A stretch of DNA of 21,676 nt from a virus. Location of the stretch: the IMG/VR virus record IMGVR_UViG_3300023210_000262, positions 1-21,676 of that record. The stretch is one strand, 5' to 3'. The notes below the pieces were generated by a model that did no database searches, was not told where the DNA came from, and saw nothing but the letters and a program-made list of their open reading frames with translations. Position 1 is the stretch's first letter; the number at the start of each line of letters is the position of its first letter. A program made the translations under genes and the position numbers. Below are positions 1,002 to 14,104 of the stretch, one piece after another.

Positions 1002-1009
1002 AAGTACAT

Positions 1010-1040
1010 AAAAAAAGGATTAATATCTATATATTAATCC
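1010..1040 (-). terminator. Rho-independent terminator
   Basis: A perfect 10-bp stem (1017-1026 with 1031-1040, 4-nt loop) is followed on the minus strand by a run of seven U. It lies after the small membrane-protein gene and before the 54-residue gene. A weak TTGCAA-N16-TAATAT match (1031-1058) overlaps it and could restart transcription for the fibre genes. Confidence 0.8.
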
Positions 1041-1073: not shown

Positions 1074-1214
1074 TTATTCAAATACTGTTTTTATAGTAGC
1101 TATTCAAATTATAACAGGTATTGTGATATACCAAAATGTAATTAAAAGAGTAATCCATAATAACCGACCTGAAATCATAACTAATTTAATTAACTTCTCA
1201 AATATTGTTTTCAT
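1074..1214 (-). CDS. Small single-pass membrane protein
   Basis: A 46-residue ORF from ATG 1214 to TAA 1074-1076. A short Lys-rich N-terminus (MKTIFEKLIKLVM) precedes a hydrophobic stretch of about 25 residues (LLWITLLITFWYITIPVIIG) and a short charged tail, so one transmembrane helix is expected. Small membrane proteins next to tail genes are often holins or spanin-like lysis factors in phages. The position allows that reading, but no family motif supports it. It carries one TGA (Gly) and one rare CGG codon. It is followed directly by a strong terminator and starts 2 nt after the preceding gene. Confidence 0.6.
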
Positions 1215-1382: not shown

Positions 1383-1562
1383 TTATCCTATATGTGCAAG
1401 AATAGTCCAAGTAGTATCTTTTATTAGTAGTGATTTATTTCAAATCAAATCTGCATCTGCATAAGTATTAAATAATTTAATATCTCAATTTAGAGCAGTT
1501 AATATTTTAGCATTATTATTTATATCATATATAATAATAAATTTTCAAGTATAATCTTTCAT
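1383..1562 (-). CDS. Small hypothetical protein after structured leader
   Basis: A 59-residue ORF from ATG 1562 to TAA 1383-1385, beginning MKDYTGKFIIIYDINNNAKI. Its three Gly codons are all TGA, so it is invisible under the standard code. The alternating pattern (KFIIIYD, KILTAL, TTWTILAHIG) suggests a small beta-rich domain. It is the first gene after the consensus promoter at 1732-1759 and its roughly 160-nt leader, so it would be the direct target of any leader-based control. Function not recognised. Confidence 0.6.
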
Positions 1563-1731
1563 TTTTAAATTATTTAAGTATTAAAATATATATTCATTAA
1601 CATTCGCAGACACTAATGTTTCTGCACTAGAATTGTAGCGAATGTTATCCACTACTCCTAAAGTACAATATTACTAATGCCTGAGAATGTTAATGAACTT
1701 GTTTGTGAGATATTCCCTCAAGTGCATAATC
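1563..1731 (-). promoter_or_regulatory. Structured 5' leader with alternative stems and possible leader peptide
   Basis: This stretch has no full-length gene. Transcription from the promoter at 1732-1759 would yield a leader of about 160 nt before ATG 1562. Arm A (1685-1697) is a perfect 13-bp complement of arm C (1593-1605). Arm B (1638-1646) is a perfect 9-bp complement of 1599-1607, so A and B compete for C. An inner 5-bp hairpin (1606-1610 with 1621-1625) also overlaps C. A 17-codon ORF (ATG 1725-1727, TAG 1674-1676; MHLREYLTNKFINILRH) runs through arm A and starts within a few bases of the predicted transcription start. The layout resembles an attenuator; function is inferred. Confidence 0.5.
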
Positions 1732-1759
1732 ATTATATTGTTTTCTTTTACAATGTCAA
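1732..1759 (-). promoter_or_regulatory. Consensus promoter for tiny-gene/fibre operon
   Basis: A perfect TTGACA (1754-1759) and a perfect TATAAT (1732-1737) are separated by 16 bp on the minus strand. It lies between the terminator after the 1288-residue gene and the small genes, where a promoter would be expected. Confidence 0.8.
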
Positions 1760-1808
1760 ATCTCATTTATGATAATAATTAGAGAATAGGGGCTTAATGC
1801 TTTAAAAT

Positions 1809-1840
1809 AGCCAAAAAGATTTTTTATTTTCTTTTTGGCT
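1809..1840 (-). terminator. Terminator hairpin after the 1288-residue protein gene
   Basis: An 11-bp perfect stem (1809-1819 with 1830-1840) whose arms are AGCCAAAAAGA and TCTTTTTGGCT, 54 nt after the stop of the long gene. The following U-tract is short on the minus strand (AUUUU). The plus-strand side is also T-rich, so it may work in both directions. Confidence 0.65.
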
Positions 1841-1893: not shown

Positions 1894-4800
1894 TTATAGT
1901 ATTTCAGATAAGTATTCAGTTGTAAATAATGCTCATCATAATCAGAAAAATACATTTCAATATTTACTAATCTTTTGTATTAATTCAGTTCTTGCTCAAG
2001 GTTTTGGTGTATATCAAACTATTCTATCTTCTAGTCAAGTTCATTTTAATATAGTTTTTACTTCTCACATTTGAGCTTTTGGTACTAGAGCATAAGTAAA
2101 TTCATCTAATTGTACAGCTCTCTTTATTTTTGTTTCTATGTACGATTTAGGTAAATCCATAGCTTCTTTCATTATTCATTTTAATCTATCAACTTCTGCA
2201 ATAGATATTTTAGAAGCTGAAAATCTATTTATTTCATCTACTATGTTTGTGCTAGGTCTTGTAAGTGAAAAACTATCTGCGAGAAAATCATTTATATCTC
2301 AAGAAGTTGTCCTTATCCATTCATCTTTTAATGCTTGATATTTAATATCTAGTTGCTTTGAACTTCAAAATTTTGTTTTTTTAATTCCTCATATTGATAA
2401 AGATTTAGCATTCTTTCATAATTGTCCACTTAATCATTGAGTAAATAATCAACCACTTTCTGTTCATTGTGTTCATCATTTAAACATATTTTTTAAAACA
2501 GTATCTAGTGTATATTCTCAGTAACTAGGTCTTCACAAGTTAGTTCTTCATTTATAAAGCTTTTTATCCATTAATTCATTTGAGATTTTTTCTGTAAATC
2601 TCTCAAAATCATCAGTTAATCAGGCTTTAGTAATTGCATCATCTATATTGTTTGAAGTTCAGAATTTATCAAATATTTTCTTCGCTCTTAAATTTGTTAA
2701 ATAAGAGTGCATTGCTTCTGCATCAAAATATGATAATTTAGGTGCTTCAACTCTAGTAAATGCTTTATCCATTATCTTTTGCATCTGCCCTATAAATAAT
2801 TCATTATCTTGATTTTTCACAAAATTTTCAGGAAAATATTTTTTTAATGTTTCAGGTTTTATTCTAGCAATTTGATTATATCAAGTAAATGTTCACGAGC
2901 TAGGCATTTTTGTTGCTATATCAATATTTAATCATTTTTCTTTAGCATATAAAGCCTTTAATCAATAATTTCTAGTTCATAATCATTCTTCTAATCAATT
3001 TATTATCTCATATCAACTTACTTTATATTCAGATAAATCTTGTGTCATCTGAGTTACTCTTTGATTTATTTCTTTTCATTTTTTAAGCACTAAGCTAGGC
3101 TGAGGTACTCTTGGAGAATATATATCAGCAGAGTATGTTTTAGCTTTCAGGCTTTGAATTAATGCCTTATTTCAAACTAATGTAATATCTCCAAAATCTT
3201 CAAATGGTATTGTTTTCTTCGTTACAGCAAGACTAGGTCAAGGCATTCCTCATAATTCTTGTATAGATTTTAGTTTATCAGCAGAAAGATTATGTAAAAC
3301 TACTAGATTATTTGCATCAACTTTTAATAATTCATCTTTTGTTACATAAAATCATTCTTGTCATTTAGTAAATGCCTCATCTCATATAATCTTACCTTTA
3401 TCATTCTTATACCATATATGAATTACATCTCATTTATTTTGAGCATTTTTATAAACAGTAGAATTTTTTACATATTCTAATGCCTCAGCTTGTGTTTTTG
3501 CTGTATTTTTTGGTACAAACATTCATCATTCTATTGTTCACTTATTACCATTCTTTACATATTGTTCAAGAGCATTCTTTCAACATAATTTTCAAGAACA
3601 CTTTAATCAAAATTTATTTTCTAATAAACTAGTAGGTGTTTTAATTATTTTAGTATCATCTAAAAATTTACTTTTTGTTCAAGGAACTTTGTCAGCTAAT
3701 TCGTCCATTAATTCAGCCATTTTAGGTTTAGCTTTTGTCCATTGTTTTTCTAACCATTCTCTAACTATTTTATAAACTGCCTTAATTTCTTCTGTTGCTA
3801 GATTTAATCCAACAGTAATTTTCTTTGCAAGATTATTGATTTGAGTTGGTGTAGCTTTTTTTCATATCTTAGCAATATCATCTACTATTGCTTGTGGATT
3901 TATAAATCATTTAGTATTTATTTGAGTTTTACTAGGACTTACATCTGCCTTTTTAAAACCCACCTCATCTTTAAATGCTTGTTCAGCAGGACTGAGTTTA
4001 GCTTTTGTTTTTGGTACGACTTTTGGAGTTTCTTTTGGTAAAATAGACATTGCTTTTGCATTAAACTCAGAGAAAAATCTCTCTATATATGCCTTATTAG
4101 CATTACTTAATTTCCCTCAATCTAACATACTCTCCATTCTATCTATTTGCTGTAAAGTCTTGTTTAAGTTCTTTTGAATAGATAATACATCTAAAGTTTT
4201 CTTTCAGATATTACTTTGTACTCATAATGCACTTAATGCTCATCAAATTGACCCTCAAGATAATGTATTTGCTAATCTAACAGTTCAAGCTCATAATCAA
4301 GCCAAAGGTCATCTAGTTATAGTTTTATTAAATAGATTTTGTACTTTTTTACCCATATCATCAACTAGTCATTTAGCTGTATATAATTCAGATATTTGTA
4401 AATCCATTTCTTTTAATGCACTATTACCATTTTTATCTCTAACTAAATTTTTTAATCAAGCTCTATTATTTTCAAACCTAGATGCACTTACACTAGATAA
4501 AGGTTCTCAAGTTGTTTTACTAAAAGATTTATTCTTAAATTTAGTTCCATAAAATCTAGCCAAATCATTAATATCTTTTTCACTCCATTTTACTATATCT
4601 TCTAAATCATCAACTTTAGCAAGAAATTCTAAATCATTTTCTTTTGCTCATACTTTCTTTAAATCATCAATAGCAGAATTTACATAATTAGTTTGTCTTT
4701 TTCATACAGTTGTTGTTAAATCCTCTATATTATATACAGGCTTTGTAGATAACATATCATCAACTTTTGTAGACATTGCTCAGATTTTTTTACTAAAACT

Positions 4801-5760
4801 CTTTCATAAATCATTATAAGTATTCATCTTAGCAGTATCTATTAATGAGATACTGTCTTTGAATGCTTTTAAATCAGGAGCAGTTTTAGCTTGAGATGCT
4901 TTAGCAATTAAATCATTTAAACTTTCTTGTGGAAATAAATAATTTTTAGTTTTTATAGTTTTTTCTCATAAAGCAACTCATCATTTAGCTCATAATTTAA
5001 CTCATTCTTTTCATAAATATCAAGTTCCGATTAAATCTAATACTCATATTCAAATAACACCAAGATTTTCTACATCTTGTTGTACTTCCTCAGGTAACAT
5101 TTCAAATACTTCTTTAGCAGTATATCAAATTCATTTTGCAGTAGTTCAAATGGTTTGTGCTACATCACTACCTATAACCATATCAAATTGTCTTTTAACT
5201 TCATCTTTAAAAGGTTTTTCAACAACATCAGGGCTAAGAAATGAAGCTAATTGTCAAGTTGTTTCAAATCATTCTCAGATTAAGGCTTCAACTAATCAAC
5301 TAAATGCTCTTGCATCATTAGCAGTTCTATCAAAGAACTTTCTAAATACATTTCTATTGCTCGTATCTATTTCTCATTCTATTTCTACATTTTGTCTAGC
5401 TTTTTCTTCTATTCTTGATAAGAATGTTTTATTGTCTTCAAAAGCTCAAGATACTTCATTTTCAGGAGTAGGTTGTTCTAAATCCATTCATTCAACAGTA
5501 TATCATTTTTCAGTATAATAATTCTTCACTAATGCTAAAGCTTCTACATCTGTAACTCATTCATTCTTTTGTACTTTCGCCATATCCTCAAACATTTTTT
5601 GTTTTGTCCTTATTGTAGGAGTAGGAGCTGTTTGTGTATTAGCTAATTCTTGTATTTTATTATCAGTCGCATTAAAAATAGGGGCTTTACTTTGTGTTTG
5701 CTGAGGTGTTCTCAGATTAGCTCCTTTTTGAAAATCTTGTATATTAAATAAGTCAGTCAT
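1894..5760 (-). CDS. Very large polyvalent-type phage protein, probable ejected virion protein
   Basis: A 1288-residue frame from ATG 5760 (MTDLFNIQDFQKGANLRTPQ) to TAA 1894-1896, with no TAA or TAG but many TGA codons. Residues 220-265 and 481-520 hold Gly-rich hydrophobic stretches (GVIGIGVLDLIGTGYLG; GPLAGLGAGTVRLANTL) that could enter a membrane. Residues about 741-870 match from memory a segment shared by large phage polyvalent proteins (LVVLHNLSADKL, then MPGPSLAVTKKTIPFEDFGD). The segment near 1068-1110 (GRTNLGRPSYGEYTLDTVLK) also recalls those proteins. The rest is Lys/Asp/Glu-rich helix. Polyvalent proteins are thought to be delivered with phage DNA; I saw no clear catalytic site. 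It follows the CHAP-domain gene by 10 nt, so the two are probably co-transcribed and may be ejected together. Confidence 0.72.
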
Positions 5761-5770
5761 AGTATTATAA

Positions 5771-8323
5771 TTAGTCTAAGTAAGATAAATCTATTGCCCC
5801 TTTTGCCTTGTTATATTCTTGTAATATATCTGCATTATTAGAATTGATAGGCTCAGGCTCAATATCTACCTGCCCTCAAGTTCTTGTTATCATATCTTCA
5901 AATACATCTACTAATTTATTCACTTCTTCATTCCATTTATCATTAGATAAGTTCATAGCTAATTTTGTAGCAGAATTTTCTATCATCTTTAATTCCTCAT
6001 TAGATAATGCCCCAAAAGTTGCTCATCAAGCTTTTAGGTCTATTAAGTTTTGTAATGTTAATTGTCCTTTTAAAAAATTAAAGTCTGCTCTAAAATCTGC
6101 TTCATTATCTCAGAAGAAAGGAGTATATTGAACTAATCAACTTGTCATTCTATCCATTCTACCTAAATCAAGCATTCATTTTAAACTACTTATCATATCA
6201 GTAGCCTTTCTAATTTGTATAGCATCATCTCCTGTTATAGCTCAAGATTTATAAGCATAAGCATCTTCTGCTGTTAATCATAATTCTTTCATCGTAGCTT
6301 TCGTTGTACTTGTAACTTTTCAATCAAATCATTCTAAGAAAGCTTTTTGTCATTCTGTATATAAACTTGGACTATAAAATCATCAATCACTATTTTTAAT
6401 AGTATCTAATTTTACCATTCTAGTAGATTTAGTTTCTTTTCAATCTATATTCCAATCAGTAATTTCTACTGTTCAATCTTTTTGTACAGGTCAAGTAATT
6501 ATTCAAATATGTCAATAGTCCTCTCAAGTTGCACTATCCACACTTCAATTATTCCATATAGCAACATCTCAGGGTTGTGGTATATCTATACTTTCATCAA
6601 TATATTTTGCTTTACTTTCATAAGTATTTCATACCCAAAAATCTTTAGGGTCTACTCATAAAGAACTTACATATTTATTTACAGCTTCTCCACATTGTAA
6701 TCAAGTTGGGTCAATCCCTGCAATAGCATCATAAATACTCATTGTACTTGTAGAAGTTCAATTAACAGAATGTGTAAAATAAGTTGGCTCTGCTCAAGTA
6801 TCATAAGTTCTTACTGTTGTAAATACTCAATCAGATGAATAAGTTGTATCTTTAAATCCTTTATCTTTATCTTCTTCTGTAAATACTACATCTCATAATG
6901 AAGATGTAACCTCTCTTGATACTCAATCAACTACATATAAAAGTTTTCATTCTCTATCAGTTTTATAAACTCATCATTTTTCTTCTTTTTTTAGTCAGGC
7001 TTTAAATGCTTCTAATTCTAATGTTCTTTGGTGCTTAATATCGTTTGCTAAAAACTCATTCTCTGCCTCAAATTCTTTAATAGCTAAATCTGTCATTGAT
7101 TTTCTATCAGAAGTATATTGCTCTAATGCAGTTTCATATATCCATTTTTGATTAGCATCTTCTATTTGACTTACTTGTAATTCTATGTCTATTTGATTTT
7201 GGAAATTAGATAATGTTCCTGCCTTAGCATTATATTCATTAATAAGAGTATTTTTCTTATTAGTTAATGATTTAGTTTGGTCTGCAATTATTCAATTTAT
7301 AACACTTGCAGGTACTCATTTATGAAGTGATTTAATCTCATCTCAAATATCTCTAATACTATCATTCATAGCATCTATTTCAGTCTGTTTTGCCTCTAAA
7401 TCAGTTACAACTTGTTTATATTCAGCAGAGTTTTGGATAGCATCAATATTTTGTCTTGTTGTACTAGAAAAATTTTGACTTAAAGCATCAATATAATCTT
7501 GTTTGATTATCAAATCAGAACTAACAACATCATCTTTATCAGGGTCAGATATATTTTTAATATCTTCTAATTTAGCATAATTTTCAAAATCTGCTTTTTG
7601 TTGTGGACTTAATAAAGCATATTGTTCATCAGTTGTAGTAAAATCTCAGTTCTTCATAGCATCATAAAGAAATTCATTAGATGCTCAGTTAAATTTATTA
7701 AAAAACTCAACATTAGATTTATTTTTAAAATGTCCTGTAACTGCTGTTCTTATTTCAGGAAGAAGCTCAGGATTTTCATTTGCAAACTTTTGTATATCCT
7801 CAGAAGTTGCTCATTTATCTAAAGCATCATTAAATTTTTCCATATTTAATTTATCCAAATCTTCTTGACTAGGAGTTGGGTCTTCTTTAGATAATTCTTG
7901 TTTTTGTTCAATTTGTTTAGTAGGCTGTTCTGTAATTTGTTGTTCTTGAAAAGTAGACATATCTCATTGTCTAGGCTCTGTTTTATCTGTTACTACTTGT
8001 TTATCTTCTTTAATTTCTTCCACTCATTTATCTTGTAAATCTCATACTAAATTACTATATGGACTTTCTGTTTCATCTTGTGGTATATCTCTTGTAATAT
8101 TATCATTAATTCAAGGCAGATTAAAAACTCCTGCTTCTGTATTATTGTTTTTTTCTAAATCAGGAACTTCAATATCAGCATCTGTGTTTGGTACTCATCA
8201 AAAAGGTTGTGCAATTACATCTTTTATTCAAGGTAAATTTACATCAGTATTTTCTGCAACAGCATCAACTGCTTTATCTCATAAGTCTTTTGCTGTTTTT
8301 GCAATAGTTCAAGTAATAGCCAT
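5771..8323 (-). CDS. Virion protein with CHAP-type peptidase domain and coiled coil
   Basis: An 850-residue frame from ATG 8323 to TAA 5771-5773. Residues 1-230 are acidic and low in complexity. About 300-460 is long helix or coiled coil (Lys/Glu/Gln-rich). About 525-640 looks like a CHAP / NlpC-P60-type cysteine amidase: GLQCGEAVNKY (Cys near 544), PGDVAIWNN, GHIGIITG (His near 605) and VEITDWN (Asp/Asn near 625), giving the Cys-His-polar order. The C-terminal 150 residues (LKGQLTLQNLIDLKAGGATF, GALSNEELKMI) resemble ends of phage internal or tape-measure proteins. A role in local cell-wall cleavage during DNA entry is inferred. About three quarters of its Gly codons are TGA, including both Gly of GHIGI, so the domain is cut to pieces under the standard code. 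Confidence 0.8.
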
Positions 8324-10254: not shown

Positions 10255-10944
10255 TTACTCTAAGTGTGTTAAACTTGGGAAAAGTCAATGAATTGGGGCT
10301 GTTATTCTATCTGATAATTCTGTTACCATTTCATTTTTAAGTCTTTCATAATTATTTATCGCATCATTCTTTTCATTGATTTTTCATAAATGCCCTAATT
10401 GATATTGTATCATTCATTCAACAATAGTATTGTGAAATTGTCTAGGGATTAAATTTAATGCCTCAGCTCAACCAAGCACTAGGTCAATCGGAGTAATTGC
10501 ACTAATAATATTTACTCATTCAATAATGTCTTCACTAGGAGCAGGAAAAATATGTGCCTTATTTCAATTTAAGAAAAAGAAAGCATCAGCAGTAGATGTA
10601 TTCTCTGCATAATAATCTAAAGCATAAGGTAGCCCATTTTGTGATACTTCGTGCAATACTTTAGGAATAGTATCTGTACTAGAGTAATATACTTCAATCC
10701 TTTTTACTTTCTTATGTCATACAACTAAAGCAGTAGCTTCTTGTAAATCATATCAAGTTTGCCCTATTACTGTATCAGTTAGAAAACTTCTCATAAATAA
10801 ATCTTCTCAGACAGCATTGATAATTAACTCAATCATATCGTGATAAACTGTATTTAGGTCTAATAATATATCAGTATCATTCCATTGTGTACTATTTACA
10901 TTTATTCTTCTTCTTGCTCTAGCAAAAAGTTCTGTATTGTTCAT
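10255..10944 (-). CDS. Head-tail adaptor-like protein
   Basis: A 229-residue frame from ATG 10944 to TAA 10255-10257. The N-terminus (MNNTELFARARRRINVNSTQ then WNDTDILLDLNTVYHDMIEL) is typical of phage adaptor proteins that dock under the portal: an Arg-rich helix, a W-x-D-x-D-I/L turn, then a helix. The C-terminal part (LIPRQFHNTIVEGMIQYQLG, then a Lys/Glu helix) also fits that family's closing helices. It sits in the head-to-tail part of the map, 10 nt before the hub-like gene and 15 nt after the preceding one. Family assignment is by pattern; gp4-type adaptors of short-tailed phages are the nearest analogy. Confidence 0.68.
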
Positions 10945-10959
10945 AAATTTTTAGTTAAA

Positions 10960-12234
10960 TTATATTTCTTCCCCTAATTCTAAATTTCAAAACATATTAC
11001 AAGCTCAACCACTCTCTCTAGCTCAACATAAAATTAGATAATCTCATTGTTCAGCGAAAAATTCTATATTTTCACTAGGGTTTCATATCGTACTTGTTCA
11101 ATCTTGTGGTACTCTAGCTCAAAGTATTCTAGTTGCCTTAGTAATATCAAATGTTATATCAGTATCAGAATAAGGAACACAATCAATATATTCAATAGAA
11201 CTTCATAATTCAGCATCTTGATATATTCAATCTCAATAAGCAGTTCAGCCTAAAGCAGTAATATCTCTAGTTCTCCAAATACTCATTATTGACTTATTAT
11301 CAGAACTAGCACTAATTCTAGTTAATACACTATCTCTAGTATTAGCTACTCAATATAAAGTTTCTTTAACTCTCATTATAATTAAAGGTTGGTCATATCA
11401 ACTAACAGCTCTACCTTGAGTTATTCATATATCATTAGTACAAGCAACATAAGTTAATCATTGTTTTTGCCCTCATTCACTTGTAACATCTACACAACCA
11501 AAACTCATAGCAACATCAGTTCAATCTGTATTTTCACATCTATAATGTACAGCCATAGCAGGATTAGCAGTAGATACTTGTGTTCAACCTCAAAGATTAG
11601 TAATTACTCAAACTAATTTCAGATTAAAGTAAAAATAATAATTTCATACTCATCTCCAATGATATTGTATATCGTATAAGTTTCAGGCAGATAAATCAGC
11701 TCAAGCAGGTAAATCCAAAACAACAGTCTTAGTTGTTCATACAGTATTCCTCATTACTCATTCTAATACTCAATCTGTTAATCTAAACATAACAGCACTT
11801 CAATTACTTAATAATCCCCATTCTCTTATTCAAGTAGCACTAGGAGCAGGTATATATCAAGCAGTAGCATAATAATGTCATCTGTTAGGTTGGTATCTTG
11901 GGTGTCTTCTACTATGTAAATGAGTTATATCTCAAATAGTAGCTCAACTATTCATATTCATCTGTCAAAGACTAGATACACATTTTGTAGAAGTATCTGT
12001 ATCAACTAAAGCAGTTCAATTTTCAGATATTCTCCAATAAGCTTGTGGTATATTATAAGTCCAAATTCAATGAAACAAAGATAAGTCAGTAGATACTTTT
12101 CTAATTCCCCATACAGTATTTCCTAAATCAGTTTCCATTAAATTTCATCAAGCTCAAGGTGTTGTACTCACAGCTCAATTTCAATTATAACTTTCATTTA
12201 ATATTTGTTGTGGAGTTAATTGTTTATTATCCAT
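10960..12234 (-). CDS. Virion structural protein of unknown role
   Basis: A 424-residue frame from ATG 12234 (MDNKQLTPQQILNESYNGAV) to TAA 10960-10962. It contains a segment often seen in phage structural proteins: HLHSRRHPRYQPNRGHYYAT, followed by beta strands (WGLLSNGSAVMFRLTDGVLE; NLYDIQYHWRGVGNYYFYFN) suggestive of a jelly-roll or concanavalin-like fold. No enzymatic motif is evident. Being the first gene after the Rha terminator, it starts the tail operon. A modest promoter match lies at 12264-12291. Most Gly are TGA, including a GGG triple near TNLGGGTQ. It could be a decoration, connector or baseplate-like protein; I cannot choose among these. Confidence 0.7.
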
Positions 12235-13186: not shown

Positions 13187-14104
13187 CTATGCAAAACTAG
13201 TGGCACTTTCAAGTCTAATCATTGCATCTTCTTGCAATATTTTAGAAACGAATGCAACTTTAGCACCAACTTTGACCCTTTGTGCAAGTGGGTCGCTATC
13301 AGATGCAGTTCTAGGAGTTATAAATGTTTGTAGGCTGTTTAAGCTTGGAACACCATAAGCACCTCTACCACAAATTAATGTTGGGTAAACAGTAACAGTA
13401 GAAGTAAATGTATTAACATTTGAACTTACAACTATTCTCACACCATTGATTGCCCCAATTTCTCCTTTAATCATTTTTTCAGGAGTTACATATTTGTTTG
13501 TTTCAATAAATCAAGTTACAGATGTATCTTTCTTTAAATCGTAAACAGTATGTGGGTGCAAAATTGCAACATAGTAACCCTCGTAAGTTGGAGCATTAGC
13601 AGATTGTAATTGTGTATATGCACCAATTAAGTCTTCTCAGTCTAGTGTATCAGTAGCATCAATAGTAACTCTTGAAGTAGCATCTCAACTATATCTAACA
13701 TTAGTTCAAGTCATAACTTCATCTTGTACAATGTTATCTATAATTCTAGCCATATTAGACCCAATTTCTTTTGCAGACCCTTGTATAAAGTTTATAGCAG
13801 TAGTATCTAGTAACATACTAGATAAGTTTACATATATACCATATTCCTCAGGACTAGCAGTTATTACTGTTGCATTAAATGCAGTTTCAGTAGGTGTTAC
13901 TCAATCAGTTAGAGTAGCAGTAGCAGTAGAAACAGTTAATTGAGAAAATTTTGCCCAAGATACAGTATTATATCCATCTTCAAACATAGGTTTTTCTCAC
14001 ATATTGAAAAATTCTACATTTGGCTCAAAGTTTTCTAAAACTGTTCTATATAGCCAAGTTTGTAATACTCAAGCATTCAAATCTCATCTTGTTATAGAAG
14101 CCAT
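13187..14104 (-). CDS. Major capsid protein, N4-gp56 family
   Basis: A 305-residue frame from ATG 14104 (MASITRGDLNAGVLQTWLYR) to TAG 13187-13189. Features match N4-gp56-type capsid proteins: an N-terminal helix followed by LENFEPNVEFFNMGEKPMFE, then VSWAKFSQLTV, EEYGIYVNLSS, NMARIIDNIVQDEV, the central YYVAILHPHTVYDLKKDT motif, FIETNKYVTPEKMIKGEIGA and GVRIVVSSNVN. The length is normal for the family. It follows the scaffold-like gene by 24 nt and is followed by a strong terminator, giving a scaffold-capsid unit driven by two tandem promoters. The eight TGA-Gly codons all lie in the first about 200 residues; the last 107 residues use only GGN for Gly, unlike other genes here. Confidence 0.94.

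Follow-up and report, generated by a model that had tools for sequence, protein, structure and literature searches.

Ribosome-mediated attenuators such as the trp and his leaders combine a promoter, a short open reading frame (ORF) and mutually exclusive stems, and the position of the ribosome selects which fold forms. Hairpins of a different kind punctuate the early RNA of phage T7, where they serve as RNase III processing sites of the phage message. Stabilising 5′-terminal stem-loops are described for the ompA and papA mRNAs (Emory, Bouvet and Belasco 1992; Bricker and Belasco 1999, as cited in PMC3997798).

The phage leader analysed here touches on all three systems. Like the ompA and papA elements, its small stem-loop would lie within a few nucleotides of the predicted 5′ end and keeps its pairing while its sequence changes; unlike them, it belongs to a phage using genetic code 25 and is followed in one strain by a far larger second hairpin. 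That second hairpin resembles the T7 processing sites in being long, mostly paired and located where a phage message is not translated, but it does not lie between genes of an early region and its cleavage is hypothetical. Similar to the trp and his attenuators, the leader has a promoter, a short ORF and mutually exclusive stems, yet it differs from them in lacking a downstream terminator or start-site masking, regulatory codons and conservation.

TGA encodes glycine in this phage

The window is the whole 21,676-nucleotide stretch of DNA that was analysed, the 21.7-kb virus record IMGVR_UViG_3300023210_000262. Its genes are carried by the minus strand, and their frames continue through TGA codons. 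Translation with code 25 (TGA = Gly) yields full-length genes that include terminase, portal and a collagen-like fibre, in which TGA falls at the glycine positions of the G-X-Y repeats. This code has already been described in phages that infect Absconditabacteria and Gracilibacteria (PMC10746230), and the genetic code alone suggests that the host is a TGA=glycine bacterium. Relatives of TerL reached at most 46% identity; they were too divergent, and the gene lies too remote from the leader, to inform the comparison. The two genome-contig loci belonged to Thermomonas and Pseudomonas and thus yielded no host genome. The nearest relative, IMGVR_UViG_3300038326_000452 (hereafter G001), is 98% identical over 10 kb.

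Shine-Dalgarno-like sites are rare in this group, occurring at 2 of the 69 gene starts counted in the window and G001, two records that share much sequence. A TTAAY/TAACT-like motif about 8–14 nt before the ATG was present for 30 of 52 G001 genes, compared with a mean of 14 and a maximum of 24 in shuffled sequence. We also noted that positions 1894–5760 encode a protein of 1288 aa, one domain of which resembles the PBECR5 nuclease (Pfam PF18814); its G001 counterpart matches approximately residues 1–700 only and is divergent beyond.

A strong promoter ahead of a tiny-gene operon

The initial annotation had placed a perfect TTGACA-N16-TATAAT promoter in front of the leader, and all twelve consensus positions were confirmed (Table 1). 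The terminator-like hairpin upstream of it, whose stem is identical in G001, is predicted to close the preceding operon, with the promoter directly behind it. The stretch downstream of the promoter is, in our view, best explained as a leader transcribed from a predicted start at the 5′ end of a small, late operon of the phage. Searches with the 59-aa product of the first gene returned neither relatives nor a recognised domain. This leader had been described as lying upstream of four tiny genes and the tail fibre. It does precede them, but a second terminator-like hairpin, with seven U and a stem conserved in G001, stands before the fourth gene, directly preceding the start of that 54-aa gene and the fibre. 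Fibre expression may need read-through of this hairpin or a promoter of its own.

Table 1. Positions of the leader elements and neighbouring features in the window
Feature	Position	Strand	Remarks
Terminator-like hairpin, AGCCAAAAAGA / TCTTTTTGGCT then TATTTT	1810..1840	minus	Fold −13.3 kcal/mol
Sigma70-type promoter, TTGACA-N16-TATAAT	1759-1732	minus	12/12 matches, best site in region
17-codon ORF, ATG...TAG, MHLREYLTNKFINILRH	1674..1727	minus	ATG 4 nt after −10 box
Small 5′ stem-loop, UGAGG-GAAUA-UCUCA	1706..1720	minus	Same register in three leaders, with covariation
Long RNA hairpin, perfect outer stem of 13 bp, two inner stems	1592..1698	minus	About −51 kcal/mol
Arm A, TTCATTAACATTC	1685..1697	minus	Pairs with C over 13 bp
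Arm B, AACATTCGC	1638..1646	minus	Pairs with C over 9 bp
Arm C, GCGAATGTTAATGAA	1593..1607	minus	Partner A; under 5′-side masking to at least 1682, partner B
First gene after long hairpin, 59 aa (code 25)	1383..1562	minus	No relatives found
Second gene, 47 aa	1217..1360	minus	70% identity to G001 counterpart
Third gene, 46 aa, hydrophobic	1074..1214	minus	71% identity to G001 counterpart
Terminator-like hairpin, GGATTAATAT...ATATTAATCC-TTTTTTT	1008..1040	minus	Between third and fourth tiny genes

A search for the promoter pattern gave no locus in genome contigs and four in viral records: G001 contributes two loci, an overlapping record of the early region one, and L102 the fourth. The L102 locus looks like a chance occurrence: its flanks do not resemble ours, and a blastn comparison of the window with it came back empty. 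Two further minus-strand stretches of G001 (L013) follow promoter-like sequences. At 13650–13926, a TTGACA promoter is followed by a strongly structured stretch (−65.7 kcal/mol over 251 nt) that contains no ORF of at least 35 aa, gave no Rfam hit with E values up to 1 and is possibly a non-coding RNA. At 10740–10967, a promoter copy, TTGACA-TATACT, stands before an inter-ORF stretch that folds at −37.3 kcal/mol over 201 nt.

A long hairpin folds on the transcribed strand

Folding of the minus-strand leader, the check proposed with the initial annotation, gave a single 105-nt hairpin at 1698–1592 as the minimum-energy state. The pairing of A with C closes this continuous structure, which contains a second stem (1683–1673 with 1617–1607) and a third (1668–1647 with 1643–1622). 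The folding energy of the 171-nt leader is −51.5 kcal/mol, compared with −26.2 ± 3.9 kcal/mol in shuffled sequence (z −6.5; none of 200 shuffles as low), and the hairpin is the lowest of 1437 minus-strand 130-nt windows (z −6.3, with the next at −3.4). G-U pairs make up 9 of its 45 pairs. Most mismatches between the arms become G-U pairs in the transcript, which is why the plus-strand reading folds much less well, at −30.7 versus −51.5 kcal/mol. This bias and the weaker plus-strand fold point to an element that works as RNA, and not to a palindrome of the DNA. We also considered an amplification or assembly artefact, which we think unlikely: a chimeric inverted copy should match perfectly, whereas the inner arms show imperfections biased towards G-U. 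The hairpin is, however, seen in a single record.

No known RNA family or riboswitch matched in Rfam at the gathering score, and relaxing the threshold to E up to 1 yielded chance hits elsewhere only. Blastn with the hairpin returned short chance matches in phages and nothing in plasmids. Nor did any of these searches yield a homologue with which its pairs could be compared. A compact, very stable fold that follows its own strong promoter behind a terminator would suit a small regulatory RNA, cut from the promoter transcript near 1590 and targeting messages of the host or the phage in trans. We judge this decidedly unlikely, as no terminator follows the hairpin and neither an Rfam match nor a homologue was found.

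The relative G001 shares a 5′ stem-loop and lacks the long hairpin

Failure of related phages to conserve the complementary arms had been named beforehand as evidence against a switch in this leader. G001 shows just this failure: it keeps the upstream terminator, the perfect promoter and the leader start TATAATGATTATG, and it has no 105-nt hairpin. In first place it carries an unlike ORF of 73 aa, and the genes that follow, the second and third, are homologous to ours (Table 1).

The presence of the hairpin here and its absence from a phage that is 98% identical elsewhere would be expected of a role-less palindrome inserted into the leader, either a small MITE-like repeat or a template-switch product, as would its terminal inverted repeats (13 bp perfect, about 25 bp imperfect). 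Such repeats might recur, but the arm pattern of the hairpin has no second copy in its own record, in the related records searched or in 2.9 million viral contigs, and the terminal-repeat pattern found no match in viral contigs. Furthermore, no target duplication was seen, the inner stems depend on G-U pairs of the transcribed strand, and the first gene differs too, so the insertion would not be a clean one. We therefore regard the inserted palindrome as unlikely. The two phages differ in the hairpin and in the first gene alike, which could also reflect a protein-binding mRNA operator, for example one through which the 59-aa product regulates its own synthesis. This is highly improbable: the protein has no recognised domain, and the hairpin lies 30 nt upstream of the 59-aa gene and leaves its start codon uncovered.

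A second copy of the promoter and leader start, at 6640 in G001, precedes one of its early operons and is also present in the overlapping record. The comparison set comprises three distinct leaders, two late and one early, of which two come from one phage. In all three, a stem-loop with a 5-bp stem and a 5-nt loop lies exactly 11 nt after TATAAT. Across these ungapped leaders its pairs are 100% kept, with three of the five changed on both sides, and sliding the partner strand by 1–3 columns reduced pairing to 27–47%. In this small sample, the same level of compensation was reached in 15 of 500 shuffles. The short ORF has counterparts of 12 codons in G001 (MSIREYLTYFKY) and of 5 codons in the paralogous early leader (MSLGK). 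Since compensation keeps the stem-loop while the ORF runs to 17, 12 and 5 codons, the comparison supports, although it does not prove, that the shared leader element is the small 5′ stem-loop and neither the ORF nor the long hairpin.

Alternative pairing of the arms in silico

The 17-codon ORF is present as originally annotated, with arm A inside it. Its product is probably not a conserved peptide: the three leaders show no leader-peptide conservation, and the 17 codons include no regulatory run. The position of the ATG, 4 nt past the −10 box, indicates that the ORF would be leaderless or would even begin upstream of the true 5′ end, and its translation, leaderless if it occurs, is doubtful.

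The arms were likewise recovered where they had been reported, with C able to pair with A (13 bp) or with B (9 bp). Arm B and the complement of C share a 10-nt exact match, TAACATTCGC. When the loop was shuffled 5000 times with dinucleotides preserved, a match of this length arose in 0.1% of cases (nominal p 0.001, for a comparison made post hoc). Arm B is a direct repeat of arm A (TAACATTC), so the complementarity of B to C partly follows from that of A to C and is not independent of it. A DNA operator was also considered for the matching sequence and set aside, TAACATTCGC being found nowhere else in the records checked.

We examined in silico the claim that a ribosome on the ORF would mask A and shift pairing to B:C. 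In the unmasked RNA, the probability of A:C pairing is 0.99 and that of B:C 0.000. Masking A alone raises B:C to just 0.0002–0.03, because B remains in the apical stem, where it is paired in the minimum-energy fold (1655–1647 with 1643–1635). Masking from the 5′ end to 1682 gives B:C a probability of 0.75, and masking to 1680 or further gives 0.94–0.98. The claim thus holds for a mask that extends from the 5′ end to at least 1682, and not for one covering A alone; a ribosome near the stop codon (1676–1674) could flip the fold. Mutually exclusive folds selected by the ribosome were, in this computed sense, found.

No U-tract follows the A:C or the B:C hairpin, and the ATG at 1562 is unpaired with a probability of 0.6–0.8 in every masked and unmasked state, so no attenuator output was found. 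An attenuator-like switch, in which a leaderless ribosome at the end of the ORF would open A and the second stem and the C:B pairing would alter expression of the tiny genes, draws on the response to 5′ masking, the B/C match and the strong promoter immediately upstream. The attenuator or riboswitch logic first proposed is nevertheless not supported: neither state includes a terminator or masks a start site, masking A by itself does not suffice, G001 has no hairpin and a shortened ORF, the ORF shrinks again in the early leader, its ATG may lie in untranscribed DNA and it carries no regulatory codons. We consider this switch very unlikely. A version in which the ribosome on the leaderless ORF flips the 105-nt hairpin, and thereby governs how the tiny-gene message is processed or degraded, appears quite improbable as well.

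A possible role in message stability or processing

Our preferred reading, held tentatively and with slightly less than even confidence, is that the leader consists of a conserved 5′-end stem-loop and a strain-specific long hairpin, with a probable role in mRNA stability or processing. By analogy with the ompA and papA mRNAs, the stem-loop at the predicted 5′ end would guard the message from 5′-end-dependent decay. The long hairpin would either add to this protection or form a double-stranded, RNase III-type processing site, at which a cut would separate the 5′ end from the coding part of the message. It would represent an optional module, gained or lost together with the first small gene. An optional RNA element of stability or processing is, in our analysis, more likely than a conserved on/off switch. 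A pure stability element leaves the 10-nt match between B and C unaccounted for, except as a repeat of A.

Almost nothing is known about message control in phages of bacteria that read TGA as glycine. A caution is that the striking long hairpin is strain-specific. If the switch were true, it would constitute an RNA regulator operating without Shine-Dalgarno control in uncultivated bacteria. The combination of promoter and 5′ stem-loop offers a small, testable leader family that would serve both an early and a late operon.
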